Source of the DNA: Unio delphinus
Taxonomy: Eukaryota > Mollusca > Bivalvia > Unionida > Unionidae
Direction of reading: 5' to 3'
DNA length: 64,000 nt
Assembly: GCA_029339505.1 (NCBI GenBank)
Contig: JAQISU010000246.1
Coordinates: forward strand, 1,886,501-1,950,500
How positions within the stretch are numbered: the stretch's first letter is position 1; every line of letters starts with the position of its first letter. A model generated the notes under the pieces. That model did not search any database and was not told where the DNA came from. It saw only the letters and a list, made by a program, of their open reading frames with translations. Below are positions 31,350 through 51,883 of this stretch, piece after piece. The position numbers and the translations under genes were made by a program.

Positions 31350-31692
31350 AGTAGTGTATGGGGATACTCTAGCGTCAATGGGAAAATCCTATGTAAAACA
31401 GCTTGGGAACATCTAGCGTCAAGGGGAATTTAACATGGTGGGGACTATCTAGCGTCAAGGGAAATTTAACATGGTGGGACTATCTAGCGTCAAGGGAAAT
31501 TGAACATGGTGGGACTATCTAGCGTCAAGGGAAATTGAACATGGTGGGACTATCTAGCGTCAAGGGGAATTGAACAGAGTGGGACTATATAGCGTCAAGG
31601 GAAATATAACATGGGAAATAAAACAAGGAAAAAAGGGGTGGCAATGAAAGCTACTATCTTTTCGAGACTTATGAGTGGCCCTGAAAAGGACC
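31350..31692. repeat. Inner-element left TIR
   Basis: 343 bp, matching the reverse complement of 51541-51883 except at 31690. Inside are about seven copies of a core CTAGCGTCAA, most in a 35-bp unit (GTGGGACTATCTAGCGTCAA then GGGAAATTGAACATG). The innermost end holds a histone-like stem-loop read on the minus strand. Confidence 0.97.
31677..31692 (-). terminator. Histone-type 3' stem-loop, copy 1
   Basis: On the minus strand: GGTCCT-TTTC-AGGGCC, then ACTCA and, after a short gap, CTCGAAAAGAT. The stem is 6 bp (one G-T pair) and the loop 4 nt. It begins 28 nt after the stop of the minus-strand gene at 31720-31953. The layout equals that of metazoan replication-dependent histone mRNAs. Confidence 0.8.
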
Positions 31693-31719
31693 GTTAGGTG
31701 TAATGTTAACGTTGTCTTG

Positions 31720-31953
31720 TTAACACAGAGGACATCTTACAGATCTTCTTCTCTTCCTTAAACTTCTCCTTACTGTGGGTCCATAGAAGAGAACTCTCTT
31801 CAAGCAACCTTGTCTTTCCACATAGACTCTTCTCTTCCAATAGGCTGTCTCCGTCCTATCAATGACACTCCATGATGATCTGACATACATGGGTATGTCA
31901 GTCCTAAACAGCATACTTGACACAAGGGTTGACGATTCAACATTAGTCCACAT
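31720..31953 (-). CDS. Small basic protein, terminal gene 1
   Basis: A 77-residue frame from the ATG at 31953. No domain is recognised. The C-terminal third is very basic (RRSLRKRRRSVRCPLC) and could be a nuclear-localisation or nucleic-acid-binding tail. A TATAAATA lies on the minus strand at 31996-32003, about 45 nt upstream of the ATG, and a histone-type stem-loop lies 28 nt past the stop, so the transcription unit is well defined despite the small size. It is divergent from the next gene across a 218-bp promoter region. Confidence 0.55.
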   Translation of the reverse strand: MWTNVESSTLVSSMLFRTDIPMYVRSSWSVIDRTETAYWKRRVYVERQGCLKRVLFYGPTVRRSLRKRRRSVRCPLC

Positions 31954-31995
31954 CTTCTGATGAGAACAGGTGAATTGAATGCCGTGTACTGCGGT

Positions 31996-32123
31996 TATTT
32001 ATAGGGGAAGAGCGGATTGAAACGGATTGAGTGTATCCACCAATCCAAACGTGCGTTACAAAAGTCAGACACAGCCATCCAATCGGAAGAGAGCAGTCTG
32101 TGACGTCACCTTTTCTATATAGA
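31996..32123. promoter_or_regulatory. Divergent promoter with CRE and CCAAT-like boxes
   Basis: TATAAATA on the minus strand at 31996-32003 serves the left gene. CTATATAGA on the plus strand at 32115-32123 serves the gene at 32172. Between them are a perfect CRE palindrome TGACGTCA (32101-32108) and two CCAAT-type boxes (32040 and 32077). Confidence 0.6.
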
Positions 32124-32171
32124 GGTACTAGCGCCTGTGCGCAGTCAATCGATTCAAGAGAGTTGTCAATC

Positions 32172-32810
32172 ATGGCGGACAGTAAGAAGACAATGAATTG
32201 GAGTGAGACAGGAGTAGAGACAGCAAGTCATGGACCAACAGTGACTACTAAAGTCACGACAAATCTACATCCAGAAGAAGTGGATTTTAACTGGGATATT
32301 GTGGATTTTTTAACATCGCAAGAATTTATTCCGGAACCTTCGTTGCCTTCTGTATCTTCTTATGGACACGTCGATGATTTTAAGCAGAGACAAAAAGAAG
32401 CATTGGAGCGATTTTTACAACAACAGAAAGTAGAAGAACAAGCTTTTCTTATGCAACAGCAGGAAGAAGAAGAAGCAAGAAGAAAACACCAGGAAGAAAC
32501 AGTAGCAGCAACGGAGAAGAATGAAGACCAAGGACAGAAAGAAAATAGTGAAAATCAAACGGTTACGACGGTACTTTTAGATATTTTAGCTGAGTTAAAG
32601 AGTCTGAAACAAATGTATCAGACTTCTTTATCACGACCGAAGAGAAAAAGACCTTCTCGAGCGAAACAACCCGATCTCTCTGTGACTACGTCTACCTTAC
32701 CACCGTTAGTGATTTCTACCAAATCATTGACAGGAACCACCAGTCCCGAAGTAGGCCTTGGCCGTGGCAAAGGCTTAAGACAGCTCAAGAGGATTTCATC
32801 CCGTTTCTGA
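32172..32810 (+). CDS. Coiled-coil protein, terminal gene 2
   Basis: The ATG at 32172 (MADSKKTMNWSETG) is 55 nt past a TATA box. Upstream in-frame codons lack an ATG, so this start is preferred. The protein has 212 residues: an acidic N-terminus with DFNWDIVDFLTSQEF, which resembles a short acidic activation or binding motif; a Gln/Glu-rich coiled coil (about residues 75-125); a Leu-rich helix (LLDILAELKSLKQMY); then a basic patch (RPKRKRPSRAK), a likely nuclear signal. No family is recognised. It could be a regulatory protein. The transcript likely ends at the histone-type stem-loop 33 nt after the stop. Confidence 0.7.
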   Translation: MADSKKTMNWSETGVETASHGPTVTTKVTTNLHPEEVDFNWDIVDFLTSQEFIPEPSLPSVSSYGHVDDFKQRQKEALERFLQQQKVEEQAFLMQQQEEEEARRKHQEETVAATEKNEDQGQKENSENQTVTTVLLDILAELKSLKQMYQTSLSRPKRKRPSRAKQPDLSVTTSTLPPLVISTKSLTGTTSPEVGLGRGKGLRQLKRISSRF

Positions 32811-32843
32811 GTTTGTTTTGTTTTAAATACACAAAACACCAAC

Positions 32844-32859
32844 GGTCCTTTTCAGGACC
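32844..32859 (+). terminator. Histone-type 3' stem-loop, copy 2
   Basis: GGTCCT-TTTC-AGGACC: six perfect pairs and a TTTC loop, preceded by ACACCAAC and followed by ACTCCA. A purine-rich CGAAAAGAAAT lies at 32873-32883. It starts 33 nt after the stop at 32808-32810. Of 32811-33120, the remainder holds a block shared with 50371-50395 and, on the minus strand, an AATAAA near 33032 for the next gene. Confidence 0.85.
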
Positions 32860-33120
32860 ACTCCAATTATTTCGAAAAGAAATACTATGTCAATTGCCTA
32901 TTTCAATGAAAACTCAAAAGTCCTTTATGTTTTTAAAAACCCATGATGTACGTGTGAGTGAATGAATGTGTGAGTGTAGGTAATTATACTATCAAATCAA
33001 AACCAAGAGACACTTACGTTTTTTCTCTTTAGTTTATTCTAGTACAAACGACACAATTCAATATCACAACATAACATAACACAAGACCACTTTAAAAAAG
33101 TTCATAGGTTTTCTTCTGTT

Positions 33121-33603
33121 TCACTCTTTCTGTTTTTTCATTTTCTTTACTGTCACAGCTTTTTTTTCTTCCTCTTCACTTTCGTTTCGTCTTCTTTTCT
33201 TGTTTTTGTGAACGTGACGGGGTTCTTCCTTGGAGGAGGGTACCTCTTTCTCCTCCTGTTCAGAATTTCTTTCCTCCTCCTCCTCCTCTTCCTCCACCTC
33301 CTCCTCCTCCTCCTGCTCCTGTTGTTTCTTAGGGCAGTTTGGAGACCAATGTCCTTTCTCTTTACAATAATAACAGGTATCTTGACTTTTGTCTCTATTG
33401 TAGCCTTTTTTATTTTTGTTACGATCTGAACATTCTGTAGCCCAATGTCCTTTCTTCTTACAGATATAGCAAGTATCTTGACTTTTATCTCGATAGGAGG
33501 GAGAGTAGGCTGTCGGTTGGTCTGACGAAAACTTTCGTATGACCCCACGTAAAGCTCTAATGAGAAGTTCCACTTGTGTAGGTTCTTCCATCGTTCTGGT
33601 CAA
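33121..33603 (-). CDS. Double CCHC zinc-knuckle acidic protein
   Basis: A 160-residue frame from the ATG at 33603 (alternative 33591). Two zinc knuckles, CYICKKKGHWATEC and CYYCKEKGHWSPNC, each follow a repeated DKSQDTC stretch, so the knuckle has been duplicated. A long Glu run and a Lys/Arg-rich tail (KNKKRRRNESEEEE) follow. CCHC knuckles bind single-stranded nucleic acid, as in retroviral nucleocapsid. A TATATATAAA lies on the minus strand near 33645-33655, and an AATAAA near 33032 may give the 3' end, so this gene does not use a histone-type end. Role unknown; replication or RNA binding is possible. Confidence 0.7.
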   Translation of the reverse strand: MTRTMEEPTQVELLIRALRGVIRKFSSDQPTAYSPSYRDKSQDTCYICKKKGHWATECSDRNKNKKGYNRDKSQDTCYYCKEKGHWSPNCPKKQQEQEEEEEVEEEEEEEERNSEQEEKEVPSSKEEPRHVHKNKKRRRNESEEEEKKAVTVKKMKKQKE

Positions 33604-33642
33604 TGTGAGAGTGAAAGGAATACTGAACCGTTAGACACTAAC

Positions 33643-33699
33643 CCTTTATATATATGCACGGATCGAACATGAATATATAGGGGTTATGGTCTTTAAAAG
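33643..33699. promoter_or_regulatory. Divergent promoter of zinc-knuckle and polymerase genes
   Basis: TATATATAAA (minus strand, about 33645-33655) faces the zinc-knuckle gene. TATATAG (33673-33680) or TTTAAAAGG (33692-33699) faces the gene at 33727. Confidence 0.5.
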
Positions 33700-33726
33700 G
33701 TAGTCATTTGACTTTTTGCAGACAAG

Positions 33727-34146
33727 ATGAAAAGGTCACATCATGCTGTGGAGAAAGGAAAAGACAGTAAGAGACAGAAACGTAATGTATCGCCTAGTAC
33801 AGTAGCTGAAGTCTTGGCTCAAATTCATGCCAGTGATTTTGAAGATGACATGAGTGAGCCCGAATTTACACCTAAGCAATCGACGTCCAAGCAAAGTACA
33901 CTACCCTTAGTTAACCCTGAAAATTACTATCACATTCGAGAGACAGAAAAGCGTTCCTCTCGAAAATTTAGAACAACGGCTTACACGTATGCCGTAAAGT
34001 TTAAAGATTTCAAGTCCAATGTACCTTTGGAGAATACAGAAGGGTTCATTACTGAGGTGTGGGATTCTGTGTTAACTGCACTGAAACAGCAATGTCAAGC
34101 CAAAGAAGACGATCGCTTGAGACTTTTATTCATCACGATAATTTAA
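33727..34146 (+). CDS. N-terminal part of the polymerase gene, in another frame
   Basis: The frame opens at the ATG at 33727 and runs 139 codons, overlapping the polymerase frame by 88 bases. The first 30 residues are basic, then comes a low-complexity linker. Residues 80-137 contain TAYTYAVKFKDF and DDRLRLLFI, the start of a conserved N-terminal region that I know from Polinton polymerases. The second half of that region, SPVWIEF onward, is found in the +2 frame within 34140-34230. I therefore read it as the true N-terminus of the polymerase, separated by a one-base lesion, a recoding event or a small intron near 34125-34146. It could alternatively be an independent small gene. Confidence 0.55.
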   Translation: MKRSHHAVEKGKDSKRQKRNVSPSTVAEVLAQIHASDFEDDMSEPEFTPKQSTSKQSTLPLVNPENYYHIRETEKRSSRKFRTTAYTYAVKFKDFKSNVPLENTEGFITEVWDSVLTALKQQCQAKEDDRLRLLFITII

Positions 34147-37100
34147 AGTCTCCCGTTTGGATCGAATTTACTAGTCCATCAGAACTGACACCTTCTAAAG
34201 TCATTGACAAAATTCAACATGTGCAACAATCCAATGACAAGTTTCACATTGACGATGGAAAAGCCACACTGTTCATGACCCACGTGTCTCTTCCCCAGGG
34301 GACAGGACGCAAAAAAGTATTATTGGTCGACAGCCTTCGCAGCACCAAACTAAGTCTCGTCCGAATTAACAATCCTCAAGACCAGATGTGTTTAGCCCGT
34401 GCTGTCGTCGTGGGACGAACGTATGCCAACAAGAACGACACGGTAGAATGGAAAAGAGCCTGGAAAACTATTCAACAATCGGACCGAGCCAAACAACGAA
34501 GTGAAGCAGAACTCCTGTTACAGCAAGCGGGGATATCCAAAGACACTCCTTGTGGCATTCCAGAAATGCAACAATTACAAGACGTCTTGTCTCCACGTTA
34601 CACTTTGAAAGTACACCCTCAAGAAGTGCGTGGACCTCTTTTGTTTCGAGGCCACGATTTCAAAGACGGAAAATACATTCACGTCTATCATCACGATGGT
34701 CATTTTGATACCATTACCAGTATCACTGCATTCCAGGGATACGGTTACTACTGTGAAAAATGTGACTATGGTTATAACAATCGAGAACAACACAAACATT
34801 GTGGATCAAAATGTGAGGGATGTTTAGCCTCACAACCTTGTCTGGACCAAGGAAAAGAAAGAGTGCATTGCCCTGTGTGTCAGCGCACTTTTGTCAGTCC
34901 TACCTGTTACCAACAACATTTGAAGATGCAAGGTTCACAGCAGAAAAACACTTGTCAACTTCTGAGATTGTGCCCTACTTGTGGACAAGGCATACGTACC
35001 AATAGTGCCAAGTTTCACGTTTGTCGAGGGAAGAAACGATGTCACATTTGTCACCAAATCGTGGACTTGGAACACGAATGCTTCATTCAAAAATACCAAC
35101 CCCATTCAGAAGATACCCAGAAGAAAGGGAATTTTATCTTTTTTGATTTCGAATGCATGCAAGAAACCGGTATTCACATTCCCAATTTCTGCGTAGCTCA
35201 CCGTGCGTGCGAACAGTGCATCCAAGAACCTATCTTTAGTTATTGCCCTCCCTGCAACAAGATTCCTGGAGGACGTGAAAAAATCTTTCGAGGGTCAAAC
35301 ACGTTAGCCAAGTTTGCCCGATGGATCTTAAACCCCATTGACGAAACGTGGAGTACAGAAGACATCGAACGTTACGGTAATTGTCATTGCCATGCTACGG
35401 TCATGGCTCACAATTTTTCGGGATACGATGGGCAATTTCTGCTCAGATACTATGCGGAACAATGTACCGAACGACCTCAAGTGACTTTGAACGGAGCTAA
35501 AATCATTTCTATGCAAGTAGGACAAGTACAGTTTAAAGATTCGATGTGTTACTTGGCCATGCCATTGAGTCGCATGCCTAAAACGTTTGGAATGACAGAA
35601 TTGGTTAAAGGTTATTTTCCACACTTTTTCAATACCGAAGCCAATCAATATGCCGTTCTACCCCATTTGCCGGAGGCTCACTATTACGACCCTGACAACA
35701 TGCGTACCGAACAACGAGAAGCTTTCTTCGCTTGGTACCAGACTCATGCCTCGGACCTTTTTGACTTTCAAGAAGAAATGTTAAAGTACTGTCGATCTGA
35801 CGTGGACATTTTACGACGTTGCTGTGGAAAATTTCGAGAATTGTTCATGGAGTACGGAGGGATCGATCCTTTGAAAGAAGCTTGTACCATTGCCAAAGCG
35901 TGTTCTTTAGTGTACCGAAAACGCTTTATGCCTGAAAATACTCTAGCGGTCATCAGTCCTCAAACGACGAACTTTGTTAAACGTCAATACTCAGTCAAAG
36001 CCCTGCGCTGGCTCCATTACTTGTGCGACAAGGAAGACAAATGGATCCAACACGCTCGCAACGGAGGAGGCGAAAAGATTATTGGAACGTATTCAGTGGA
36101 TGGTTGGGACTTAGAAAACCCTCAGATCGTGTACGAGTTTAACGGATGCTTATTTCACGGATGTCCTATGTGCTACCCTCAGCGTGACATCAAAAATCAG
36201 TTTTTACAACGAACTATGGAAGATTTGTACCAGACCACGTGTCAACGACGTTTGAAGTTAGAACAACAAGGATACCAGGTAGTGGAAATGTGGGAACACG
36301 AGTACGATCAGCGTTTGAAAACCGATCCCGAGTTTAAACGCATCGTAGAAAGTTACAAGTGGGTGGACCCATTGAACCCCCGGGATAGTTTGTACGGAGG
36401 ACGAACGAATGCCACTTGTTTGCTGTACCAGGCGGACGAGGAGAAAGGAGAAGAAATCAAATACTTGGACGTGTGTTCATTGTATCCTTACGTGTGTAAA
36501 TATTGTCACTTTCCCGTAGGGCATCCAGAATTGATGACAGATCACATTGACTTGGACCACATTCGTCAGTACGAAGGATTGATCAAGTGTAAAGTCTTGC
36601 CACCCACAGACTTGTACCATCCCGTTTTACCTCACCATTGCCAAGGAAAACTGATGTTTCCTTTGTGTCGCACATGTGCTGAAACGTGCAACCAAGACCA
36701 ACCTTGTCATCACACTCAGGAAGAACGTACCTTGACAGGAACGTGGGTGAGTGTGGAATTGTTTAAAGCTCTGGACATGGGATACCAACTGTTAGAAGTG
36801 TACGAAATTTACCACTTTCCCAAAACACAACAATACTGCAAGGGCGACGAGAGACAGAAAGGTATTTTTGCAGACTACGTGGATTCCTTTTTAAAACTAA
36901 AACAAGAAGCTAGTGGCTATCCTTCCTGGTGTCACACTCCCGAAGACCAAAAGATATTCAAAGAAAAATATCGGGAGCAGGAAGGTATCACTTTAGACCA
37001 CATCGAGAAAAATGAAGGAAGGCGATCGTTTGCCAAAGTCATGCTCAATTGTTTGTGGGGTAAAATGGCACAACGTCCATCTTTACCCAAGACGGAGTAT

Positions 37101-37796
37101 TTGTCCGAGCCGTCTCGCTACTTCCAGATGATTCACGACCCAACCAAAGTCATGAAACACGTGGACGTCATTCGTGAGGACTTGATCTTAGTCAATTACG
37201 AAGAAGAACTAGACTTTGTAGAAGCCGACAAATTTGGAAATGTCATCATTGCGGCTTACGTGACAGCCCACGCTCGCTTAAAATTGTACGAAGTGTTAGA
37301 ACTGTTAGGAGATCGCGTGTTGTATTTTGACACAGACAGTTGCATCTACATTCACCGACCGAACGATTGTAACCCTGTCATCGAAGGAGACCGTTTAGGA
37401 GCCTGGACCGATGAACATCCCGACGACAAGATTCTAAGTTTTGCAAGTGGCGGTCCTAAAAATTACGGCTACGAATACCGAGACCCCCAAGGAAAAATGC
37501 ACACCAAATGTAAAGTGAAAGGATTGACTCTTAATTATCGCACCAGTCAAGTGGTGAACTTTGACGTGCTTCAAGAAGCCTTACAGTTGGGACAGGATGA
37601 AACGTTTCAAGTGACTACCCACGAACCGCACAAGATTGTCCGTTTACCCACACACCAAATCGTTAGCAGACCTTTGGAAAAAGTCTACCAAATCGTGTAC
37701 CAAAAGAGAGTACGACTTCCCAATCACTTCACTCTACCGTACGGTCACATCGAAATCGGGCAGCATATAAAAAGGGACATTGTCCAAGACCAATAG
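34059..37796 (+). CDS. Protein-primed family B DNA polymerase
   Basis: A 1,245-codon frame. Residues about 229-341 are Cys/His-rich with repeated CxxC pairs (YYCEKCDYGY, VHCPVCQRTF, RLCPTCGQG, RCHICHQ). Exonuclease motifs follow: FFDFECM (about 362), HNFSGYDGQF (about 447) and YCRSDVDIL (about 577). YEFNGCLFHGCPMC (about 691) is the endonuclease-like insert common in Polinton polymerases. The polymerase motifs are DVCSLYPYV (about 803), KVMLNCLWGKMAQR (about 993) and YFDTDSCIYI (about 1089, catalytic DTDS). All catalytic residues are present. It replicates the linear genome from its ends with a protein primer. The real N-terminus probably lies in the overlapping frame from 33727. Confidence 0.95.
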   Translation: MGFCVNCTETAMSSQRRRSLETFIHHDNLKSPVWIEFTSPSELTPSKVIDKIQHVQQSNDKFHIDDGKATLFMTHVSLPQGTGRKKVLLVDSLRSTKLSLVRINNPQDQMCLARAVVVGRTYANKNDTVEWKRAWKTIQQSDRAKQRSEAELLLQQAGISKDTPCGIPEMQQLQDVLSPRYTLKVHPQEVRGPLLFRGHDFKDGKYIHVYHHDGHFDTITSITAFQGYGYYCEKCDYGYNNREQHKHCGSKCEGCLASQPCLDQGKERVHCPVCQRTFVSPTCYQQHLKMQGSQQKNTCQLLRLCPTCGQGIRTNSAKFHVCRGKKRCHICHQIVDLEHECFIQKYQPHSEDTQKKGNFIFFDFECMQETGIHIPNFCVAHRACEQCIQEPIFSYCPPCNKIPGGREKIFRGSNTLAKFARWILNPIDETWSTEDIERYGNCHCHATVMAHNFSGYDGQFLLRYYAEQCTERPQVTLNGAKIISMQVGQVQFKDSMCYLAMPLSRMPKTFGMTELVKGYFPHFFNTEANQYAVLPHLPEAHYYDPDNMRTEQREAFFAWYQTHASDLFDFQEEMLKYCRSDVDILRRCCGKFRELFMEYGGIDPLKEACTIAKACSLVYRKRFMPENTLAVISPQTTNFVKRQYSVKALRWLHYLCDKEDKWIQHARNGGGEKIIGTYSVDGWDLENPQIVYEFNGCLFHGCPMCYPQRDIKNQFLQRTMEDLYQTTCQRRLKLEQQGYQVVEMWEHEYDQRLKTDPEFKRIVESYKWVDPLNPRDSLYGGRTNATCLLYQADEEKGEEIKYLDVCSLYPYVCKYCHFPVGHPELMTDHIDLDHIRQYEGLIKCKVLPPTDLYHPVLPHHCQGKLMFPLCRTCAETCNQDQPCHHTQEERTLTGTWVSVELFKALDMGYQLLEVYEIYHFPKTQQYCKGDERQKGIFADYVDSFLKLKQEASGYPSWCHTPEDQKIFKEKYREQEGITLDHIEKNEGRRSFAKVMLNCLWGKMAQRPSLPKTEYLSEPSRYFQMIHDPTKVMKHVDVIREDLILVNYEEELDFVEADKFGNVIIAAYVTAHARLKLYEVLELLGDRVLYFDTDSCIYIHRPNDCNPVIEGDRLGAWTDEHPDDKILSFASGGPKNYGYEYRDPQGKMHTKCKVKGLTLNYRTSQVVNFDVLQEALQLGQDETFQVTTHEPHKIVRLPTHQIVSRPLEKVYQIVYQKRVRLPNHFTLPYGHIEIGQHIKRDIVQDQ
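37766..37774 (+). promoter_or_regulatory. TATA box of the BIR gene
   Basis: TATAAAAAG inside the polymerase 3' end, 57 nt before the ATG at 37831. Confidence 0.6.
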
Positions 37797-37830
37797 TTCA
37801 TTGTGACTAACACAGCTAAGCGAAAAGAAG

Positions 37831-38379
37831 ATGAATCCATTTAAACAGACATCATTCAAATTTGGGAATTCTCAAGTGGAGTGCGATGCTAAACCTTGTG
37901 ATTGTAGTGATGCCAGGCTCTGTGACGTTAGCGATTCAGCAGGATATCGTAGGAACTTTGCTATGACTACTACCCCTATATCTACCCTGGAAAGTGATGC
38001 TGTACGTGTCAAACCTGAGGGATGTGAAAGCGGTGCCACACGTTATCGTGGACTCCTAGGAATTTCACCGTACCTGCATCGAACTGAAGTGAGGAGAGTC
38101 GAATATTCGTTCCCGACGAGTTTGCCTGAATACTGCCACTTTAAAAGTCGATTTCAAACCTTCAAAGATAAATGGCCAAAATATCTGCCTGGACCAACTC
38201 CTGAAGAATTAGCCAGAGCCGGATTTTTCTACTTGGGCGAAGGGGATAAAGTCAAGTGTTTCAGTTGTGGTGTATCCATTTACGAGTGGGAACAGAAAGA
38301 TTCCGCTTACCTGGAACATGCTCGATGGTCTCCGAATTGTCAATACCTACCTTTAGTGGGACCTAATGATTGGAAGTGA
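37831..38379 (+). CDS. BIR-domain inhibitor-of-apoptosis-like protein
   Basis: 182 residues. The C-terminal 70 residues form one BIR domain: RFQTFKDKWP, LARAGFFYLGEGDKVKCFSC, YEWEQKDSAYLEHARWSPNC. The zinc ligands Cys-x2-Cys, His and Cys are all present. There is no RING finger. The N-terminal 110 residues are unusual and Cys/Ser-rich (ECDAKPCDCSDARLCDVSD). In baculoviruses and other large DNA viruses BIR proteins block caspase-driven cell death. The same role is inferred, since an element that makes particles would gain from a living cell. It lies directly after the polymerase and has its own TATA box. Confidence 0.9.
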   Translation: MNPFKQTSFKFGNSQVECDAKPCDCSDARLCDVSDSAGYRRNFAMTTTPISTLESDAVRVKPEGCESGATRYRGLLGISPYLHRTEVRRVEYSFPTSLPEYCHFKSRFQTFKDKWPKYLPGPTPEELARAGFFYLGEGDKVKCFSCGVSIYEWEQKDSAYLEHARWSPNCQYLPLVGPNDWK

Positions 38380-38391
38380 CACTACTACTCC

Positions 38392-39660: not shown

Positions 39661-39712
39661 ACCTCTTGTCTTGTCTGTTTTTGTGTCAATACTGACATAC
39701 CACTACACGACT

Positions 39713-40444
39713 ATGGCTCACTCTACTCTTTCTACTACTCCTTCCTCCTCCACATTCAAAGTCATTGACGAACACTTAGATCAGGCTAGTTGGAAAGCCT
39801 TGTATCTTCGTCATCCTTTTAACATGTTAATTGCTGGACCGAGCGGTTCAGGCAAAACCGAATTTGTCAAACGTTTGATCGAACATAAACATCATTTGAT
39901 CGATCGTCCACCTCAACGCATCGTGTGGTGTTACAAAGAGTGGCAATCGGCATACAGCCTCTTGCAAGAAAGTCAAGGTGATTCCATTGTGTTTGTAGCA
40001 GGCATTCCTAAAGAAGACGAGGGGATCGTGTCTGACCCTAGTCAAACTCATTGGGTTATTTTTGACGACATGTTAGGAGAAGACGAAGAAGAAATTAAAC
40101 TATGGTTTACACGTAAAGGGCATCATCGTAATGCCAGTGTCATTTACATTACGCAAAATTTATTTCAACAAAGTAAAGCCCATCGTACCATTAGTCTCAA
40201 TGCTCATTACGTGGTCTTGTTTAAAAGTCCTCGAGATAAATCACAAGTGCAAGTTTTAGCCAAACAGTTAGGAACACCTTGGCTAACTCATGCGTACGAT
40301 GATGCCACTCAAACGCCACACGCCTATTTACTCGTGGATTTAAAACCCACTACCCCTGATTATTTGCGATTTCGTACCGATTTGTTTCACGACTGGTGTC
40401 AAGACGGAGGACCTGTCGTGTACACGTCCTCCTCGTCGACATAA
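39713..40444 (+). CDS. Packaging ATPase (FtsK/HerA-like)
   Basis: 243 residues from the ATG at 39713. The Walker A is LIAGPSGSGKTEFVKRL (about residues 40-56). The Walker B is HWVIFDDMLGE (about 110-120), followed by KGHHRNASVIYITQN, the sensor/arginine region usual in A32-type ATPases of Polintons and large DNA viruses. It pumps the genome into preformed capsids. It is homologous in role to the outer-element ATPase, which this element interrupts, but the proteins are clearly diverged. The frame is intact. Confidence 0.92.
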   Translation: MAHSTLSTTPSSSTFKVIDEHLDQASWKALYLRHPFNMLIAGPSGSGKTEFVKRLIEHKHHLIDRPPQRIVWCYKEWQSAYSLLQESQGDSIVFVAGIPKEDEGIVSDPSQTHWVIFDDMLGEDEEEIKLWFTRKGHHRNASVIYITQNLFQQSKAHRTISLNAHYVVLFKSPRDKSQVQVLAKQLGTPWLTHAYDDATQTPHAYLLVDLKPTTPDYLRFRTDLFHDWCQDGGPVVYTSSSST

Positions 40445-42603: not shown

Positions 42604-43296
42604 ATGGAAGGACGAAAACTAACTTTGGTTCCTTACAAACGATGGATGGAATACCATCATTGGCAAGAACAACGATCCCCCCATTTACCGCCCAATCCCA
42701 ATTTGGCTGAGATGTCGCAATTACAACACGAATTGCAATCCTTGATCCATCGCCACGATTTATCCGAAACCGAAAAATCACAAAAGTACGGTCAACTCTT
42801 GAAACGGCTACAACTCTTTCATCAGAAAGCTGTGGAACAAACAGCTCAACCCACTTTGTCCGATTTTAAGGCTCTAATGAATAACCCGGCACCCTCACCC
42901 TCACCCTCTACAGCAGTTAAAACAGACGTTACCCCACCATTACCCAAGGAAGAAGAAGAACCCCATGATCTCTTTCAAACACCTACTGCTACTCCCATTC
43001 CGAGTAAGATTGCCGCTTCCTTGTTAACCCCTTCCCCCACTCCCCCACGAGAAGAACTCAAAACTTGGGTTAAAAAGATGATGGCTACTCCTTCTTCGAC
43101 AGATGTGAAAAAGAAAGAAAGGAAACCAGAAGTGAGAAAAGAAAAGAAGGCCAAAGAAGCTATCCCATTACCTCCACCACCACCATTACCCTCGACGTCA
43201 ACTCCTGTGGCACATCGGACACGTAAAACCGTTTCCAAACAACCCGCATTTCGTCCCACCCAAAGCAATATCCTCGAAGAGTGGGTCCCTTATTAA
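42604..43296 (+). CDS. Conserved virion-associated protein, unknown role
   Basis: 230 residues. The start LTLVPYKRWMEYHHW and the helix LQHELQSLIHRHDLSETEK, then YGQLLKRLQLF, match a protein I recall in many Polinton-type elements ('LVP...EM..IL....L...EK...Y...L'). The rest is Pro/Ser/Thr-rich with a basic stretch (KKKERKPEVRKEKKAKE) and a polyproline run, and ends ILEEWVPY. It was probably a structural or scaffolding protein. It is adjacent to the integrase, whose ATG lies eight bases after this stop. Confidence 0.6.
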   Translation: MEGRKLTLVPYKRWMEYHHWQEQRSPHLPPNPNLAEMSQLQHELQSLIHRHDLSETEKSQKYGQLLKRLQLFHQKAVEQTAQPTLSDFKALMNNPAPSPSPSTAVKTDVTPPLPKEEEEPHDLFQTPTATPIPSKIAASLLTPSPTPPREELKTWVKKMMATPSSTDVKKKERKPEVRKEKKAKEAIPLPPPPPLPSTSTPVAHRTRKTVSKQPAFRPTQSNILEEWVPY

Positions 43297-43304
43297 CAAA
43301 AACC

Positions 43305-44417
43305 ATGGAGAAGGTCTTAGCCAGCATTTACTACGATCCAGCTCACCCTGCAGGTTACGGAGGCATTCAGAAATTGTATCGTGCTGCCAAAACTCGCCTG
43401 AAAAAGCTCCGTTTACCAGCAGTACAACGATGGTTACAAGAACAAGCGACGTACACTTTACACAAACCCATTCGACGAAAATTTCACAGAAGTCGCACTC
43501 AAGTGGAAGGCATCGATCATCAATGGCAAGCCGATTTAGCTGATGTCTCTCATTTAGCCACCTACAATCGTGGCTACAAATATTTGTTTTGTGTCATCGA
43601 CGTCTTTTCTAAATTTGCCTGGGTCGTACCATTGACATCCAAATCGAGCGGAGAGTTAGTACGAGCTTTGCAACTGGTGTTGAAACAAAGCGGTCGTCAC
43701 CCTCTTCGATGGCAAACCGACAAAGGCACCGAATTTCTGAACCAAGCTTTTCAACGAGAATTAAAAAAACGTGACATTCATTTTTTCACCACCGAAAATC
43801 CTGAAACCAAAGCCAGTATCGTGGAACGTTTTCAACGTACCTTGAAAGAACGCATGTGGAAATATTTTACACATCAACACACTCTCAAGTACATCGACGT
43901 CTTACCACACTTAGTCCAAGCCTACAATCAATCTTACCATAGAAGCATTGGACGTGCCCCACAAGAGGTGACACCTGACAACGAAGTGACTGTTTTTGAG
44001 CGTCTGTTTGGTACGTCCCGGACGAGGGCTGTCCCCAAGAAAGGTAAAGAAGTGTTAACCCCGGGAGATTGGGTACGCATTGGCAAAACCAAACGCACTT
44101 TCGACAAAGGTTACTTACCCAACTGGACCACCGAATTGTTTCGTGTGACTGGACGAGTGCGCGATCGTCATCCTACCGTCTATAAATTGGAAGACATGAA
44201 CGGAGAAGTATTAAAAGGAACATTTTACTTGCCTGAGTTACAACGTGTTACCAAAAAAGAAGACGACGTGTACGACATTGAAAGCATTCTCGAACGAAGA
44301 ACCCGTAAAGTAGGAAAACGTCGTGTCAAAGAAGTCAAAGTACGTTGGAAAGGATATCCTCCTAGTTTTGATTCTTGGATTGACGCTTCGCAAGTCATCG
44401 ACTATAAAAAGAAGTGA
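43305..44417 (+). CDS. Retroviral-type integrase with chromodomain
   Basis: 370 residues from the ATG at 43305; an in-frame GTG at 43281 would overlap the previous gene. Residues 1-65 form the zinc/HTH-like N-terminus (without a full HHCC). Catalytic residues: QADLAD (Asp, about 73), WQTDKGTEF (Asp, about 136) and SIVERFQRTLK (Glu, about 171). Residues about 322-363 (VYDIESILERR, VRWKGYPPSFDSWID) form a chromodomain, which in chromoviruses targets histone marks. It explains the TIR ends and the AACGTG duplication. The frame is intact, so this copy could be functional. Confidence 0.95.
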   Translation: MEKVLASIYYDPAHPAGYGGIQKLYRAAKTRLKKLRLPAVQRWLQEQATYTLHKPIRRKFHRSRTQVEGIDHQWQADLADVSHLATYNRGYKYLFCVIDVFSKFAWVVPLTSKSSGELVRALQLVLKQSGRHPLRWQTDKGTEFLNQAFQRELKKRDIHFFTTENPETKASIVERFQRTLKERMWKYFTHQHTLKYIDVLPHLVQAYNQSYHRSIGRAPQEVTPDNEVTVFERLFGTSRTRAVPKKGKEVLTPGDWVRIGKTKRTFDKGYLPNWTTELFRVTGRVRDRHPTVYKLEDMNGEVLKGTFYLPELQRVTKKEDDVYDIESILERRTRKVGKRRVKEVKVRWKGYPPSFDSWIDASQVIDYKKK

Positions 44418-45744: not shown

Positions 45745-45751
45745 AAAAGTG

Positions 45752-46192: not shown

Positions 46193-46219
46193 AAGTGAAG
46201 AAAAAAACCTAAAGCAAAA

Positions 46220-47564
46220 ATGATGCACCAAGAATCTTGTGCCTGTTCCAAGTCGGAACTAGATCTCTTTGCCATGCCACCCACGATGATGACCATGCAA
46301 GAAGCTCAATGGGTCGAATTTCATCCCGTCTCCTCTTTGACGGATTCAGCTCCCATCGAGTTTGAAATCAAAGGACAACCCGAAGATTACATTGATCTGA
46401 ACAACAGTTACTTGTATTTGAAAGTGAAAGTGGGTAGAACGGACAACGACAACCCGCCGGCAGTCGATGCCCAAGTAGCTCCCGTCAACAATTTTATGCA
46501 TTCCTTGTTCAGCGATGTGGATTTGTACATGAATAACAAACTGGTTAGCAGTAGCATGGATACTTACCCTTATCGAAAATCTCTTGACGTACGGAAAAGA
46601 AGCCAAGAACACTCATTTAGATGCTTGCGTGGTATGGAAACCTGATACAGCAAATGATAATAACGACAATGATAATAACTTTAGCGACACAGTGTTGTCC
46701 GTACCAGCAACCAATGAAAATGCTGCCGTTCCTCACAATGTGGGTTTTAACGAGCGTCGAAAGAAAATTCTGCAAGGACGTAGTTTAGAACTGTGCGATC
46801 GTTTGCATTTGGACATGTGGTTTCAAGAGAAGTATTTGCTGAACGGAGTAGATATTCGCTTGAGACTGAATCGAAGCAGTGCTGCTTTTCATTTGATGGC
46901 TAATGCCAGCACATACAAAACCATCATCCAAGAAGCCAGGTTATACGTGCGTCGTGTGGAAGTGTTACCTAAAGTGGGAAATGACATCAGTCACACCTTG
47001 AGCAGAACGACAGCCAAGTATCCGATACGCCGCGTGGAAGTCAAAACTTTTACCATTGCCGCTGGACTCCAATCAAAGATCGAAGATCATCTGTTTCAAG
47101 GACAGTTACCCAAACGTTTATTCATTGGTATCGTCAGCAATGCAGCCCTCAACGGTGCCCACGATAAAAATCCTTTCGAGTTTAGGCACTACAATGTATC
47201 CAAAATTGAAGTCAGTCGCGATGGCAAAACTTTGTGTACCCGACCCTTCGAACCCAAGTTTGGCTTGAAGAATTACTTGAGGTCGTACTTGTCACTGTAC
47301 GAAGCCACAGGACAGTTAGGAACCAACACCAGTCACGGTATTTCTTACAACGATTATGCAGGAGGTTACACGTTGTGGGCTTTTGATTTCACTCCAGACC
47401 AAGGCAGCGACGAGGGACATTTCCACCCTATAAAATCTGGGCAACTGCGTGTGGAACTTCAGTTTGCAGTACCTCTTCCCCATACGGTGAATGTCATTCT
47501 GTATGCCGAATTCGATAATACCATAGAAATCAACAGTTTGAGAGAAGTCATTCTAGACTATTAG
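46220..47564 (+). CDS. Major capsid protein (double jelly-roll), one frame break
   Basis: Two overlapping frames, 46220-46645 and 46584-47564, make one MCP of about 448 codons. The first holds DYIDLNNSYLYLKVKV, NNFMHSLFSDVDLYMNN and MDTYPYRKSL. The second begins with LTYGKEAKNTHLDA at the point where MCPs of this family continue 'TYGKEAK', so the frame changes by one or two bases at about 46580. Later segments, YLLNGVDIRLRLNRSS and QLRVELQFAVPLPHTVNVIL, are typical. This protein forms the capsid hexamers. The break is at no clear slippery site or homopolymer, so a lesion or a sequence error is more likely than programmed shifting. Confidence 0.9.
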
Positions 47565-47569
47565 ACACT

Positions 47570-48070
47570 ATGGAAGACCCTTGTCCCTCTTTGAATAGTG
47601 GAGAATCCATGGAATGGGAGGTTACAGAAAAAGCAAACCATCAAGACCAAAAAGAAGAAGAAGTAGTGATCATGCAATCCAGATGGCCAGAACAGGAACA
47701 ACAGTTAGTGGCTTGTTTTGCACAACACTTGGAAGATAAAATGAGGGACCTGATTAAAAAAGATTGTTATGGATGTCAAATCGATCATCCCAGTCAAATT
47801 CAACACGATAAATGTATGATGATGAGTCAAGAAGAAAAATTGGATGATTATCTGAACGAAGCTTGGAGTCTCATCTCCGAAGAAGACGTGTTACTTCAGT
47901 GGTATAAAGGCTTACGTGATCATTCCTCTCCTCCATTGTTTGCTCGAGAAATTGATCGCATCGAAGCTCTCTTGGCACAGAGTAAAGAGACGAAGCAAAC
48001 CATCAGTTACTTGTCAGACCGTTTCAAACAAAAAGTCTGGATTGAATTGATGACTTATCATCACCTGTGA
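47570..48070 (+). CDS. Conserved protein after the MCP, unknown role
   Basis: 166 residues. KDCYGCQIDHPSQIQHDKCM, a Cys/His-rich knot, is a motif I recall from proteins next to the MCP in many Polinton elements. The remainder is acidic and helical. It starts six bases after the MCP stop. A TATAAAA at about 47430 within the MCP gene may serve it. Function unknown; the Cys/His set could bind zinc. Confidence 0.65.
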   Translation: MEDPCPSLNSGESMEWEVTEKANHQDQKEEEVVIMQSRWPEQEQQLVACFAQHLEDKMRDLIKKDCYGCQIDHPSQIQHDKCMMMSQEEKLDDYLNEAWSLISEEDVLLQWYKGLRDHSSPPLFAREIDRIEALLAQSKETKQTISYLSDRFKQKVWIELMTYHHL

Positions 48071-48107
48071 AGAAAGGAGAGAAAAACACAAGGCTACAAA
48101 ACAAAAA

Positions 48108-48665
48108 ATGGATACTTGGGAACTTTATTATCTTTTGAACCGTAGTTCGTACACTGCTTCTTGGAATCCTGTGGTGTGTGCTAAAGATGAACTACCTCAT
48201 CGCAAACCTCAAGAGAATCAAGCTTATGTCATCAACACAGATGACAGTCATCTTCCAGGAACTCACTGGGTAGCTGTCTACTTTCCTCAAGAGGGTTGTG
48301 CGGAGTATTTTGATTCGTATGGATTGCCTCCTTTCGAAGATGATATCATTGACTTTATGAGAAGAAATGCCCAGACGACACGATTCAATAATGTGAAATT
48401 ACAAAGCACAGATTCTATGGTGTGTGGACAATATTGTATCTATTATCTGCATCATCGCAGTCTTGGATATTCTTTAGAACATTTAGTGACTTATTTTGAT
48501 CGTCATTCGTCTCGAAACGATGACAAAGTAGATCGATGGTTTTGTGACCATTATGGCTATCTGTTGTCTTTAGCTAGGAAACGTAGTGTACATCAATCGC
48601 CCAATGATTTCCAACAGTGGAAATCTCAATTTAATTCACAACGTTGTCAACCATGTCAAAGATAA
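48108..48665 (+). CDS. Adenain-like cysteine protease
   Basis: 185 residues. Catalytic residues are at PGTHWVAVYF (His, about 52), AEYFDSYGLPP (Asp, about 67), LQSTDSMVCGQYCIYYL (Gln-like position and Cys, about 105), all in the order known from the adenovirus protease. It matures core and minor capsid proteins, such as the GG-containing PX products, in the particle. Compared with the outer-element copy, the Asp and the CG..C box are intact. It is the last gene of the central block. Confidence 0.92.
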   Translation: MDTWELYYLLNRSSYTASWNPVVCAKDELPHRKPQENQAYVINTDDSHLPGTHWVAVYFPQEGCAEYFDSYGLPPFEDDIIDFMRRNAQTTRFNNVKLQSTDSMVCGQYCIYYLHHRSLGYSLEHLVTYFDRHSSRNDDKVDRWFCDHYGYLLSLARKRSVHQSPNDFQQWKSQFNSQRCQPCQR

Positions 48666-48689
48666 TGTAATGGAGTTATGGAAGAAAAA

Positions 48690-48768
48690 TATGTTTGTTC
48701 TTTGAAATGATGTTTGTTCTTTGAAATAATGTTTGTTCTTTGAAATAATGTTTGTTATTTGAATAAAA
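48690..48768 (+). repeat. 20-bp tandem repeat with polyadenylation signal
   Basis: Four copies of a TGTTTGTTCTTTGAAATAA-type unit just after the protease gene. The last runs into AATAAA (about 48763). The repeat may hold the 3' end of the central late transcripts. Confidence 0.8.
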
Positions 48769-48896
48769 ATGTTGTGTTTTGAAAACCAATGTGTCTGTCG
48801 TTTATTTTACATTTGTATTCATATAAATGCTCTTTGACTTTTCTTTCTATCCCTCACATCAAACTATCTAAACGTTTCAAAACCCTAAACAGTCGA

Positions 48897-48936
48897 GGGG
48901 TGTTTTCCATCACGTCCGCGCTTGAACCATATAATG
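48897..48936 (+). promoter_or_regulatory. Shared terminal-gene promoter, copy 1
   Basis: GGGGTGTTTTCCATCACGTC, then CGCGCTTGAAC and CATATAAT. The TATA-like box lies 32 nt after the start of the block and 61 nt before the ATG at 48990. The same block recurs at 49757 and 50857. Confidence 0.8.
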
Positions 48937-48989
48937 CAGGGGTAGTCTCCAGTCTGGCCATCCATTGTTTGACTCATCCTCCTACGAAG

Positions 48990-49358
48990 ATGTGCTCAAG
49001 ACTAGCTAAGCTGAACGAAGCTTATGTCACTCTGCATCGTATCAGACACAATCTGATGCCAAAGCCTGAAGAGATTGAGAATGTGAGAATGCTACAAGTA
49101 ACGGAAGACCTCATAGAAGAACTCTTCAGAGAGGAAATTCAAAAAGAGAAAGAAGAATGGACTGAGAAGTATCGACTTCAAAAGCAGCAGAGAGAACAGA
49201 GAGAACAGCATCAGCAGCAGCAGCAACAGCAACAACATCAGCAGGAACCAGACAGAAGTTTTGTCGACTGTCGTGTGGACACAAAAGAGTTCTCTTTCTC
49301 TTTCCGAAGAAGCAGACCCTATCGTGTAGCCAAACGAGGACGCAATCTTAGACGATAA
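48990..49358 (+). CDS. Gln-rich coiled-coil protein, terminal gene 3
   Basis: 122 residues. I choose the ATG at 48990 (MCSRLAKLNEAYVTLHRIRH) because the shared promoter lies between it and the longer in-frame ATG at 48789. The middle is a Glu/Lys/Gln coiled coil with a run of Gln/His; the end is Arg-rich (RRSRPYRVAKRGRNLRR). Its opening (KLNEAY..LHRIRHNL, then EDLIEELF) resembles in layout the next gene (RELQMHLENARRLLDEL), so the two may be distant paralogues. Function unknown. A histone-type stem-loop lies 40 nt past the stop. Confidence 0.65.
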   Translation: MCSRLAKLNEAYVTLHRIRHNLMPKPEEIENVRMLQVTEDLIEELFREEIQKEKEEWTEKYRLQKQQREQREQHQQQQQQQQHQQEPDRSFVDCRVDTKEFSFSFRRSRPYRVAKRGRNLRR

Positions 49359-49398
49359 AAGATTGTCATCCTTCCTCGTACACACAAACACAAAAAAC

Positions 49399-49414
49399 AG
49401 CCCTTTTCAGGGCT
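49399..49414 (+). terminator. Histone-type 3' stem-loop, copy 3
   Basis: AGCCCT-TTTC-AGGGCT, then ACCCA exactly as in histone mRNAs, and CTCGAAAAGAATT at about 49425-49437 as the purine-rich downstream element. It starts 40 nt after the stop. Confidence 0.88.
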
Positions 49415-49654
49415 ACCCAATATTCTCGAAAAGAATTAATTATTCAATTTGCTTATGGTATGTGAGGAAGTTAGAAAAAAATAGAAGTGAGTCTATAATC
49501 ACTGTCTCATTTTACTTTTGTTTTGAAGTGCGTCTATAAGCACAACGTATTTTTTCAAAATAACTTGTTCAATGTATAATTAATAGGAGTCAAGTATAAA
49601 AGTGAGTGAGTGTTTTATTTTAAAAAGTCAGCTTGTTTTTTTTTTTTTTTTTTT

Positions 49655-49783
49655 GGTAATGATAGGAATAATGTAAGTTTTTTGGATCTAGGGGTGTTTT
49701 CCATCACGTCCGCGTGTTTTGGTAATGATAGGGATACTGTAAGATTTTTGGATCTAGGGGGTGTTTTCCATCACGTCCGCGCT
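49655..49783 (+). repeat. Tandem duplication of the promoter region
   Basis: Two copies of about 63 bp (49655-49714 and 49721-49783) run from GGTAATGATAGG through TTTTGGATCTAGGGG to CACGTCCGCG. Only the second continues into a TATA box; the first is an orphan promoter half. Confidence 0.8.
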
Positions 49784-49798
49784 TGAACTATATATAAA
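49757..49798 (+). promoter_or_regulatory. Shared terminal-gene promoter, copy 2
   Basis: GGGGTGTTTTCCATCACGTC, CGCGCTTGAAC, then TATATATAAA at about 49789. The TATA box lies 32 nt after the block start and 56 nt before the ATG at 49845. Confidence 0.82.
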
Positions 49799-49844
49799 GA
49801 AGCACTCATCAGTCTGGCTACCCATCGTTGGTGAATCAAAGAAG

Positions 49845-50312
49845 ATGAGCAGAGTTCAAAAGTTAAGAGAGCTTCAAATGCATCTGGAAAATGCTAGGCG
49901 TCTCCTGGACGAACTGGCTATGGAGGCCATAGCAGAGCAGGCCAAAATTGAAAAAGAAGAGGAGGAAAGAAAAAAGAAAGAAGAGGAGGAGAAGAAAAGT
50001 CCCATCTTACCTCACCGCATGATGAGACAGACTAGTGAAGTCAAACCCATGGTGAGGGCACCTTCACCACCAGAACCAGTTCGTCCACTACAGGTTCAGC
50101 CCCCACTGCCTCAGACGCAACAACCACAGACTCATCCACGGTTGCGGAATAGAGGCAGAAATGAAGAGACTTTCACTATCCCTCAAACAGAAGATTGGGA
50201 TAGTGAAGCCACTCATTCTCCCTCTGCACTCCCAGTCACAAGAGTGAATTGGGAGAATGATTGGAGTAGGAGATGTGTGTGTGGGGCTAGACCTGGGAGA
50301 TGCCAGCATTAG
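49845..50312 (+). CDS. Coiled-coil, Pro-rich protein, terminal gene 4
   Basis: 155 residues from the ATG at 49845, 56 nt after the TATA box; the in-frame upstream start overlaps the promoter. The first 55 residues form a coiled coil (LRELQMHLENARRLLDEL, then an EEERKKKEEEEKK run). The middle is Pro/Gln-rich (PSPPEPVRPLQVQPPLPQ), and the end has WENDWSRRCVCGARPGRCQH with Cys and His that may bind zinc. No family is recognised. It has a histone-type stem-loop 28 nt past the stop. Confidence 0.65.
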   Translation: MSRVQKLRELQMHLENARRLLDELAMEAIAEQAKIEKEEEERKKKEEEEKKSPILPHRMMRQTSEVKPMVRAPSPPEPVRPLQVQPPLPQTQQPQTHPRLRNRGRNEETFTIPQTEDWDSEATHSPSALPVTRVNWENDWSRRCVCGARPGRCQH

Positions 50313-50340
50313 CCAGGTGCATTTTGAAGTTAAAAAAAAC

Positions 50341-50356
50341 AGCCCTTCTCAGGGCT
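50341..50356 (+). terminator. Histone-type 3' stem-loop, copy 4
   Basis: AGCCCT-TCTC-AGGGCT, then ACCCA and CTAGAAAAGAAATA. The loop has one T-to-C change that the canonical consensus allows. The 25 bases after 50371 match those after 32874. Confidence 0.88.
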
Positions 50357-50453
50357 ACCCAAATAACTAGAAAAGAAATACTATGTCAATTGCCAATGAG
50401 TGTGAGAGAGGAGTAGTGTGATTATAAACACTGACTCTATTTAGATGGTATAT

Positions 50454-50840
50454 GTTGTGATTTTGGATAGTATATAGTAGGGTGTGTTTTGGCTGCTTCC
50501 CCGTGTGTGTGGTTAGTATAGGGTGTGATTTTGGATAGTATATAGTAGGATTTGTTTTTGGCTGCTTCCCCGTGTGTGGTTAGTATAGGGTGTGTTTTGG
50601 ATAGTATATAGTAGGGTTTGTTTTGGCTGCTTCCCCGTGTGTGTGTGGTTAGTATAGGGTGTGATTTTGGATAGTATATAGTAGGGTTTGTTTTGGCTGC
50701 TTCCCCGTGTGTGTGGTTAGTATAGGGTGTGATTTTGGATAGTATATAGTAGGGTTTGTTTTGGCTGCTTCCCCGTGTGTGTGGTTAGTATAGGGTGTGA
50801 TTTTGGATAGTAAATGATAGGGTTTGTGGATAGTATCTAA
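50454..50840. repeat. 68-72-bp tandem repeat, five copies
   Basis: Units of GATTTTGGATAGTATATAGT, GGGTTTGTTTTGGCTGC, TTCCCCGTGTGTGTGG and TTAGTATAGGG. It ends 20 bp before the third shared promoter. Length differences come from the GTGT part. It fills most of the 632-bp gap between genes. Confidence 0.9.
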
Positions 50841-50856
50841 TATGACAAGTGAATGT

Positions 50857-50900
50857 AGGGGGTGTTTACTTTCACGTCCGTGCTTAAGATATATATACTC
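50857..50900 (+). promoter_or_regulatory. Shared terminal-gene promoter, copy 3
   Basis: GGGGGTGTTTACTTTCACGTC, then CGTGCTTAAG and ATATATATAC. A slightly diverged copy with the same 32-nt spacing to the TATA box and 57 nt to the ATG. Confidence 0.78.
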
Positions 50901-50944
50901 AAAGTGACTGACATTAGAACCATTCCACGGAATAACCATAGAAG

Positions 50945-51523
50945 ATGGCAAAAGCATCAAGTTTATTCAACAATTTAAGACACAGCTATTTCTGGATATT
51001 AGACGGGGAATATGAAGTGGAAAAATTACATCATAAATGGAAGATTGCGAAGAGTTTGAACTTTGCAAAAAGACTGAAAATAGCCAGGGAGCTCTTAGGA
51101 GGAATGCTAGAAGAAGAAGCCAAAAAGTTACGAGGCTGCATTAATCCACCCTATGTTAGAGTGGGGACATTGAAGCAAGTAATAGATATTGTCGAAAACG
51201 TCAAGTGTTTTTTGGATAATATCTTGACAGAGTACCCCCATGTCCAAAAGGGTTTGGACCCGCTCAAGAAAGCTGAAGAACTGATGAGAAAGGAACTATT
51301 AGAAGAAGTGAAGAAGATAAAAGATAACTGGAGTAAGGAGAGAAAGGAAAGAAAGGACTATGAAAACCAAAAAAAGAAAGAGGACTTTGAAAGATTAAAT
51401 AACAATTGGATAAAGATACAAGAGAAGTTTAGAGCTATGGGGCATCCTGACTGGATTCCCGACGAAAAGAAGAAGGGAATTTTTGGTAAAATCAAAAGGT
51501 GGTGGAACAAAGGCAGAAAATAA
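50945..51523 (+). CDS. Helical basic protein, terminal gene 5
   Basis: 192 residues from the ATG at 50945. Almost wholly alpha-helical and Lys/Glu-rich. It has LNFAKRLKIARELLGGMLEE, the pattern 'A..L.E..A..LL..' seen in the two preceding genes, then a CINPPYV segment. The C-terminal half is a long coiled coil, ending IFGKIKRWWNKGRK, a basic amphipathic tail that could bind membranes. No domain is recognised. Its stop is 17 nt from a histone-type stem-loop that also begins the right TIR, so the TIR supplies its 3' end. Confidence 0.65.
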   Translation: MAKASSLFNNLRHSYFWILDGEYEVEKLHHKWKIAKSLNFAKRLKIARELLGGMLEEEAKKLRGCINPPYVRVGTLKQVIDIVENVKCFLDNILTEYPHVQKGLDPLKKAEELMRKELLEEVKKIKDNWSKERKERKDYENQKKKEDFERLNNNWIKIQEKFRAMGHPDWIPDEKKKGIFGKIKRWWNKGRK

Positions 51524-51540
51524 AAGAAGAAGTATCCAAA

Positions 51541-51556
51541 GGCCCTTTTCAGGGCC
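51541..51556 (+). terminator. Histone-type 3' stem-loop, copy 5
   Basis: CCAAA (51536-51540) precedes GGCCCT-TTTC-AGGGCC and ACTCA, then CTCGAAAAGAT. The CCAAA, stem and loop match the metazoan consensus well. It is the inner end of the right TIR, inverted with respect to copy 1. Confidence 0.9.
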
Positions 51557-51883
51557 ACTCATAAGTCTCGAAAAGATAGTAGCTTTCATTGCCACCCCTT
51601 TTTTCCTTGTTTTATTTCCCATGTTATATTTCCCTTGACGCTATATAGTCCCACTCTGTTCAATTCCCCTTGACGCTAGATAGTCCCACCATGTTCAATT
51701 TCCCTTGACGCTAGATAGTCCCACCATGTTCAATTTCCCTTGACGCTAGATAGTCCCACCATGTTAAATTTCCCTTGACGCTAGATAGTCCCCACCATGT
51801 TAAATTCCCCTTGACGCTAGATGTTCCCAAGCTGTTTTACATAGGATTTTCCCATTGACGCTAGAGTATCCCCATACACTACT
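51541..51883. repeat. Inner-element right TIR
   Basis: Reverse complement of 31350-31692 with one mismatch (at the position matching 31690). It has the same internal repeats. Confidence 0.97.

Follow-up and report, generated by a model that had tools for sequence, protein, structure and literature searches.

The 64,000-nt stretch of Unio delphinus DNA analysed here (the window; assembly GCA_029339505.1, contig JAQISU010000246.1) contains a Polinton/Maverick-type mobile element at 31350-51883, and five short accessory genes located towards its two ends, gA to gE, probably act as histone-type transcription units whose mRNAs would be free of poly(A) and coupled to S phase. Each of the five carries the cis-signals of a histone gene end, a hairpin followed by a purine block; the hairpin stem covaries among related copies, the signals resemble those of the histone genes of the host, and gA to gD have no AATAAA downstream within the ranges given below. 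Histone-type 3' ends are generally regarded as a mark of replication-dependent histone genes, with hardly any exceptions. The features concerned are listed by position in the window, with scores for the Rfam model of the histone 3' hairpin, RF00032; open reading frame is shortened to ORF.

31350-51883, no strand: Polinton/Maverick-type element, with inverted repeats at ~31350-31695 and 51538-51883
31677-31692, minus: gA hairpin GGTCCTTTTCAGGGCC, with CGAAAAGA at 31657-31664; RF00032 match 31651-31697 minus, 27.7 bits, E 1.1e-3
31720-31953, minus: gA, a 77-aa basic ORF of pI 11.1, divergent from gB, with TATAAA ~50 nt upstream
31954-32171, no strand: divergent upstream region shared by gA and gB, with two CCAAT boxes, TGACGTCAC and two TATA boxes
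32172-32810, plus: gB, 212 aa, a hairpin gene
32844-32859, plus: gB hairpin GGTCCTTTTCAGGACC, then TTCGAAAAGA; RF00032 match 32839-32884, 35.3 bits; the same 16 letters as in host H1
48900-48921, plus: gC promoter motif, an exact pattern match to GTGTTTTCMATCACGTCCGCGC
48990-49358, plus: gC, 122 aa, counted from the ATG just past its promoter motif, within a frame that is open from 48789
49399-49414, plus: gC hairpin AGCCCTTTTCAGGGCT, then CTCGAAAAGA; RF00032 match 49394-49440, 34.9 bits
49694-49715, plus: gD promoter motif, first copy, 1 mismatch
49761-49782, plus: gD promoter motif, second copy, exact
49845-50312, plus: gD, 155 aa, a hairpin gene
50341-50356, plus: gD hairpin AGCCCTTCTCAGGGCT, then CTAGAAAAGA; RF00032 match 50336-50380, 32.3 bits
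50862-50883, plus: gE diverged promoter motif GTGTTTACTTTCACGTCCGTGC, 4 mismatches to the pattern
50945-51523, plus: gE, 192 aa, predicted to be all-helical, with homologues on other public contigs
51541-51556, plus: gE hairpin GGCCCTTTTCAGGGCC, then CTCGAAAAGA; RF00032 match 51536-51582, 37.0 bits

Five hairpins of this kind had been claimed in an earlier note on this DNA, and all five are present, at 31692-31677 on the minus strand and from 32844, 49399, 50341 and 51541 on the plus strand. A covariance-model check set beforehand, the search of the window with RF00032, matched every one of these gene ends at E <= 1.1e-3 and nothing else at E <= 10; the gathering score of the model is 34, which gB, gC and gE exceed, while gD and gA lie below it. 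A regular expression of six pairs, a T[TC]TC loop and AC, composed after the sites were seen, matches exactly the same five hairpins in the window; in 300 dinucleotide-shuffled windows it occurs 0.25 times per window, and 0.003 times if GAAAAGA is also required within 28 nt, as against five observed. The hairpin begins 27, 33, 40, 28 and 17 nt past the stop codon in gA to gE respectively, which agrees with the 17-40 nt given previously, and always stands in the sense orientation of its own gene. Its 3' flank reads ACTCA, ACTCCA or ACCCA, and the purine block GAAAAGA lies 13-14 nt past the hairpin in all five genes; the gA stem of the window copy includes one T-G pair. Each of gA to gE reads as one short frame, whose ATG stands 50-62 nt downstream of a TATA-like box.

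All five cases are real, but not all of them are independent of one another. The two inverted-repeat copies have gA and gE at their inner edges, so that a single sequence provides the 3' arm and purine block of both genes, and gB and gD have ~25 identical bases in common, starting at the purine block; because of these shared parts the independent evidence amounts to about three or four cassettes rather than five.

The histone genes of the host provide the closest comparison. Host H1 has its best match, at 99%, in a protein without a name, and its closest named counterparts in Mytilus coruscus and oysters, in keeping with a bivalve host. The first 9.5 kb of another contig of the same genome, C15 (locus L043), encodes H2A, H1, H3, H4 and H2B, with a second histone unit beginning 6817 bp on from the first. 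The histone genes of C15 stand in repeated units near the contig start, and the strand of the RF00032 matches changes along this stretch. The host hairpins score 41.5 (H2A), 37.6 (H1), 37.4 (H3), 29.2 (H4) and 37.6 bits (H2B), so that the element hairpins lie inside the host range of 29.2-41.5 bits with the exception of gA, just below it. In the aligned gene ends the stop codon precedes the hairpin by 29-38 nt in the host histones, compared with 17-40 nt in the element, and the purine block follows at an equal distance in both, as GAAAAGA in four of the five host genes and as GAAAAAGA in H2A. The gB hairpin is letter-for-letter identical to that of host H1, and the sequence downstream is similar. 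A TTGCC box, noticed afterwards, lies 12-13 nt past the purine block in gA, gB, gD, gE, host H1 and H2A; variants of it stand at 13-16 nt in gC, H2B, H3 and H4.

The likeness extends upstream, to a feature that the earlier note missed: the 22-bp motif GTGTTTTCMATCACGTCCGCGC is common to the upstream regions of gC and gD and to those of host H1, H2A and H2B. The pattern was composed after viewing both element and host sequences, with up to 3 mismatches allowed; it has only three matches in the window, one before gC (exact) and two before gD (one exact, one with 1 mismatch), and five in L043, namely H1 (exact, in two units), H2B (2 mismatches) and H2A (reversed, 1 mismatch, in two units). Its mean in shuffles of the window or of L043 is 0.00. 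Host H3 has two CCAAT boxes, one of them in a CCAATCCAA context as found upstream of gA and gB, which may point to a weak likeness of the gA/gB upstream region to H3. In four older gE copies (L016, L026, L049 and L053) CATTTAACGCGGGTGC occurs within 200 nt upstream, replacing the histone motif; we take CATTTAACGCGGGTGC to resemble an E2F site.

Four of the hairpin genes, gA to gD, also differ from two genes without hairpins in poly(A) signals, of which the forms AATAAA and ATTAAA were scanned. Neither is present within 1 kb downstream of gB, gC or gD, or in the 375 bases between gA and the end of the element. The two genes without hairpins do have the signal: AATAAA stands at 33033 (minus) behind the zinc-knuckle gene and at 48762 behind the protease-like gene.

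A search of the host genome with RF00032 gave at least 74 matches, at least 69 of them above the cut-off, among the best 75 of 434,796 candidates; the window's own hairpins are absent from these 74, and a control search gave a match in one of 14 known genomes, below the cut-off. Six of the 74 lie near the start of C15, and 49 outside it (L013-L042 and L044-L062) were examined, with 19 others left out. A gA or gE homologue (tblastn, E <= 1e-3) accompanies 42 of the 49; L060 is a histone H2B gene, L021 has an H2B-like stretch on the opposite strand, and five have no assignment. As this sample was picked by its hairpins, it cannot by itself show conservation. L045 carries an end of gA type and one of gE type, less than 2 kb apart and oriented alike, as though two elements, or two ends, had been joined.

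Further copies were collected by a search with the gE protein. At least 150 copies with 96-100% identity, the window's included, were found among the best 150 of 4521 candidates, so the element family has multiplied recently in the host genome. The hairpin and CGAAAAGA are present in all of the 30 best gE copies, again with the window's own included, four of them having a T-G pair; gD could be located in 29 of the 30 loci, with its hairpin and GAAAAGA purine block in 29 of 29. These 30 gE loci and 29 gD copies are young copies. Among older gD copies, judged by eye, a recognisable hairpin persists in seven of eight and all six pairs in four of eight.

The hairpin stem covaries. When 22 chosen hairpins are aligned, 94.7% of the cells pair, compared with at most 59.8% in slid versions, and both sides have changed in four of the six pairs (between G-C and A-U in the outermost, between U-A and A-U in the innermost). 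Not one of 500 shuffles attains the covariation score of the alignment, its paired cells or its doubly changed cells, a result that overstates the case because the rows are related and were mostly found through RF00032.

Beyond the host, seven contigs from prokaryote assemblies carry genes related to the family B DNA polymerase (PolB) of the element; some of these contigs are taken to be mis-binned animal DNA. In one of them, L008, RF00032 scores 35.8 bits at a hairpin 28 nt past the stop of an 89-aa ORF, which by eye appears C2H2 zinc-finger-like and is not homologous to the hairpin genes of the window. This gene ends in GGCCCTTATCAGGGCC, ACCCC and then AAAAAAGA, with no TTGCC-box variant. 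The PolB pieces of L008 score higher against P0016, a sea-cucumber sequence and an oyster sequence than against the PolB of the window. As the signal thus stands on another gene in a Polinton whose polymerase is nearer to other lineages, the strategy may be old and recurrent. Homologues of gE (P0114-P0124, 47-84%) occur on public contigs of ~600-2000 bp, which are possibly transcripts. No relative was confirmed in viral_contigs with PolB alone, two PolB alignments, a gE alignment, the capsid-like ORF of L008 or two hairpin patterns; the five exact matches to one of these patterns (L001-L005) had no RF00032 match at E <= 0.5 and were dismissed as chance.

It is proposed that host SLBP would bind the hairpin of gA to gE mRNAs while the host U7 small nuclear ribonucleoprotein pairs with the purine block, and that the histone cleavage complex would cut between the two. 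The resulting mRNAs would lack poly(A), would be synthesised as well as translated during S phase and would be destroyed once replication stops, while those of the protease-like and zinc-knuckle genes, with AATAAA downstream, would be polyadenylated. The element would thereby have an S-phase regulon of its own, switched on at the time when element DNA can be copied. From the sequence features we infer cleavage, use of SLBP and U7, S-phase timing and any benefit; these steps also formed part of the earlier note, whose histone-type interpretation is supported by RF00032, the host signals, covariation, L008 and the promoter motif. A tentative extension, somewhat short of probable, is complete mimicry of histone genes: an animal Polinton lineage would equip its accessory genes as one regulon, at both ends of the element, with the promoter as well as the hairpin/U7 3' end of a histone gene. 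Factors of the histone locus body might be recruited, expression would be poly(A)-independent and tied to S phase, and the strategy would be old and recurrent in animal Polintons and their virus relatives.

Several observations weigh against the histone-type interpretation or limit its reach. By eye, the hairpin is present in only one of six readable older gB copies (six more are cut off) and in none of three older gC copies, which counts against strict retention, though many copies have decayed. The slightly relaxed promoter motif (<= 3 mismatches, within 200 nt) occurs in seven of 27 older gE copies, and promoter mimicry is for this reason not universal in the family. On two of its five measures the covariation test is weak: as many doubly changed pairs occur in 15 of the 500 shuffles, and as many pair types in 92. 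An AATAAA overlaps the stop codon of gE at 51519; past the stop codon no further AATAAA occurs up to the end of the element. A search of the host genome with RF00066 (U7 small nuclear RNA) gave no match at E <= 0.1 among the best 65 of 695,180 candidates. RF00032 gives no match at E <= 1 in six of the seven foreign PolB contigs (3.6-12.7 kb), from which the element ends may be missing; an older element surrounding the present one likewise has none in the window at E <= 10. That histone-type gene ends are universal among Polintons is not supported.

Three other explanations were considered. Host histone gene ends, with pieces of promoter, could have been captured and carried along idle, unused for 3' processing; the exact H1 stem-loop of gB with its similar downstream sequence, the cassette parts common to several element genes and the loss of the hairpin from most older gB and gC copies all speak for such a history. 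It is nonetheless unlikely, as paired stem positions change together, the signal stands on five genes of which gA to gD have no AATAAA downstream in the ranges scanned, and the distant Polinton L008 has it on an unrelated gene. The hairpins could instead serve mRNA stability, export or translation, with the real ends polyadenylated downstream or, in gE, at the AATAAA at 51519. Some histone genes produce both kinds of mRNA, and the AATAAA over the gE stop codon would suit this explanation, which is quite unlikely given the lack of AATAAA/ATTAAA within 1 kb of gB, gC and gD and in the 375 bases past gA; cleavage is also the simplest explanation for a purine block at histone spacing.

It is very improbable that the hairpins are DNA elements of the element ends, with a function in replication, packaging or the inverted repeats and only an incidental likeness to histone genes. 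Two of the five do stand where the inverted repeats meet the interior of the element, but those of gB, gC and gD lie outside the repeats, each of the five points in the direction of its gene and is placed past the stop codon, and the flanks and purine block match those of host histone genes. DNA-level roles for the hairpins were rejected on this orientation, the purine block and the host histone match.

The inverted repeats of the element are 99% identical by self-BLAST and are bordered by a 6-bp target duplication, AACGTG, at 31344-31349 and 51884-51889. The following genes lie between gB and gC.

34059-37796, plus: family B DNA polymerase, a core gene without hairpin, PF03175 (DNA_pol_B_2 type), E 4.8e-41
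37831-38379: gene that immediately follows PolB and whose product has a BIR domain (inhibitor of apoptosis), E 6e-24 by Pfam
39671-40444, plus: packaging ATPase, Pox_A32, E 6.1e-7
43281-44417, plus: retroviral-type integrase with chromodomain, rve E 1.6e-12, Chromo E 1e-7
48108-48665, plus: protease-like gene closing the core cluster, 30% to an L008 ORF, with AATAAA at 48762

The capsid and protease labels of the element ORFs are presumptive; the capsid-like and protease-like ORFs are 30-33% identical to the corresponding L008 ORFs, and the capsid-like ORFs have no Pfam match. The capsid-like gene (46220-47564) is divided between two overlapping frames in the window copy, which may therefore be broken. 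The zinc-knuckle gene (33121-33603, minus) encodes two zinc knuckles and a long acidic stretch and is without a histone hairpin. Among the hairpin genes, gA has homologous stretches in other copies; gB, gC, gD and gE have no Pfam family above the cut-off and no histone domain, in a scan of these four genes. The AlphaFold model of gE is all-helical (mean pLDDT 79) and has no PDB match at E <= 0.001. Tandem repeats of ~68 bp lie upstream of gE (50448-50827) and of ~35 bp inside the inverted repeats (31404-31614).

The surroundings of the element (16118-31343 and 51890-52270) are the remains of an older Polinton-type element of a different lineage (integrase 28%, protease 29%). By tblastn the older integrase lies at 29955-30557 and the protease at 19418-19798, both on the minus strand; an ATPase-like ORF, recognised by eye, is interrupted at 31344. 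Possible inverted repeats of the older element are found at 16118-16338 and 52061-52270 (89%).

No histone-type gene ends in Polintons or adintoviruses were found reported in the literature among the titles and abstract openings listed. The earlier note knew of no such report either; this has to be qualified by PMC12220804, in which six 'histone 3'UTR stem-loop' Rfam matches are counted among polinton-like virus and virophage genomes, without comment in the available part of the paper. Its methods, in the same part, give 8300 genomes scanned. PMC4744033, as far as its available text goes, concerns a histone hairpin in a reporter and has no bearing on Polintons.

The gene set described here would matter in several ways. 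As non-histone genes in a mobile element, gA to gE may serve as natural test constructs for the histone 3' signal, and through them a possible link between Polintons and the cell cycle can be approached directly. If the histone-type interpretation is true, RNA data selected for poly(A) would miss all five genes; the combined signals also provide a signature for spotting such genes in other animal Polintons and in adintoviruses.

In comparison with known systems, the element has in common with Polinton/Maverick elements and adintoviruses its PolB, an rve integrase with chromodomain, an A32/FtsK-type ATPase, inverted repeats and a 6-bp duplication. The matches in PMC12220804 are, in the available part of that paper, a count only, made outside its cryptophyte elements and given without gene, position, purine block, promoter or function. 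Unlike histone genes, gB to gE have no recognised histone domain, and gA to gE sit in a mobile element. With the host cluster L043, and with metazoan histone genes, gA to gE have in common the hairpin, its 3' flank, the purine-block spacing and a short 3' untranslated region, and gC and gD, with a diverged form at gE, the promoter motif of host H1, H2A and H2B.

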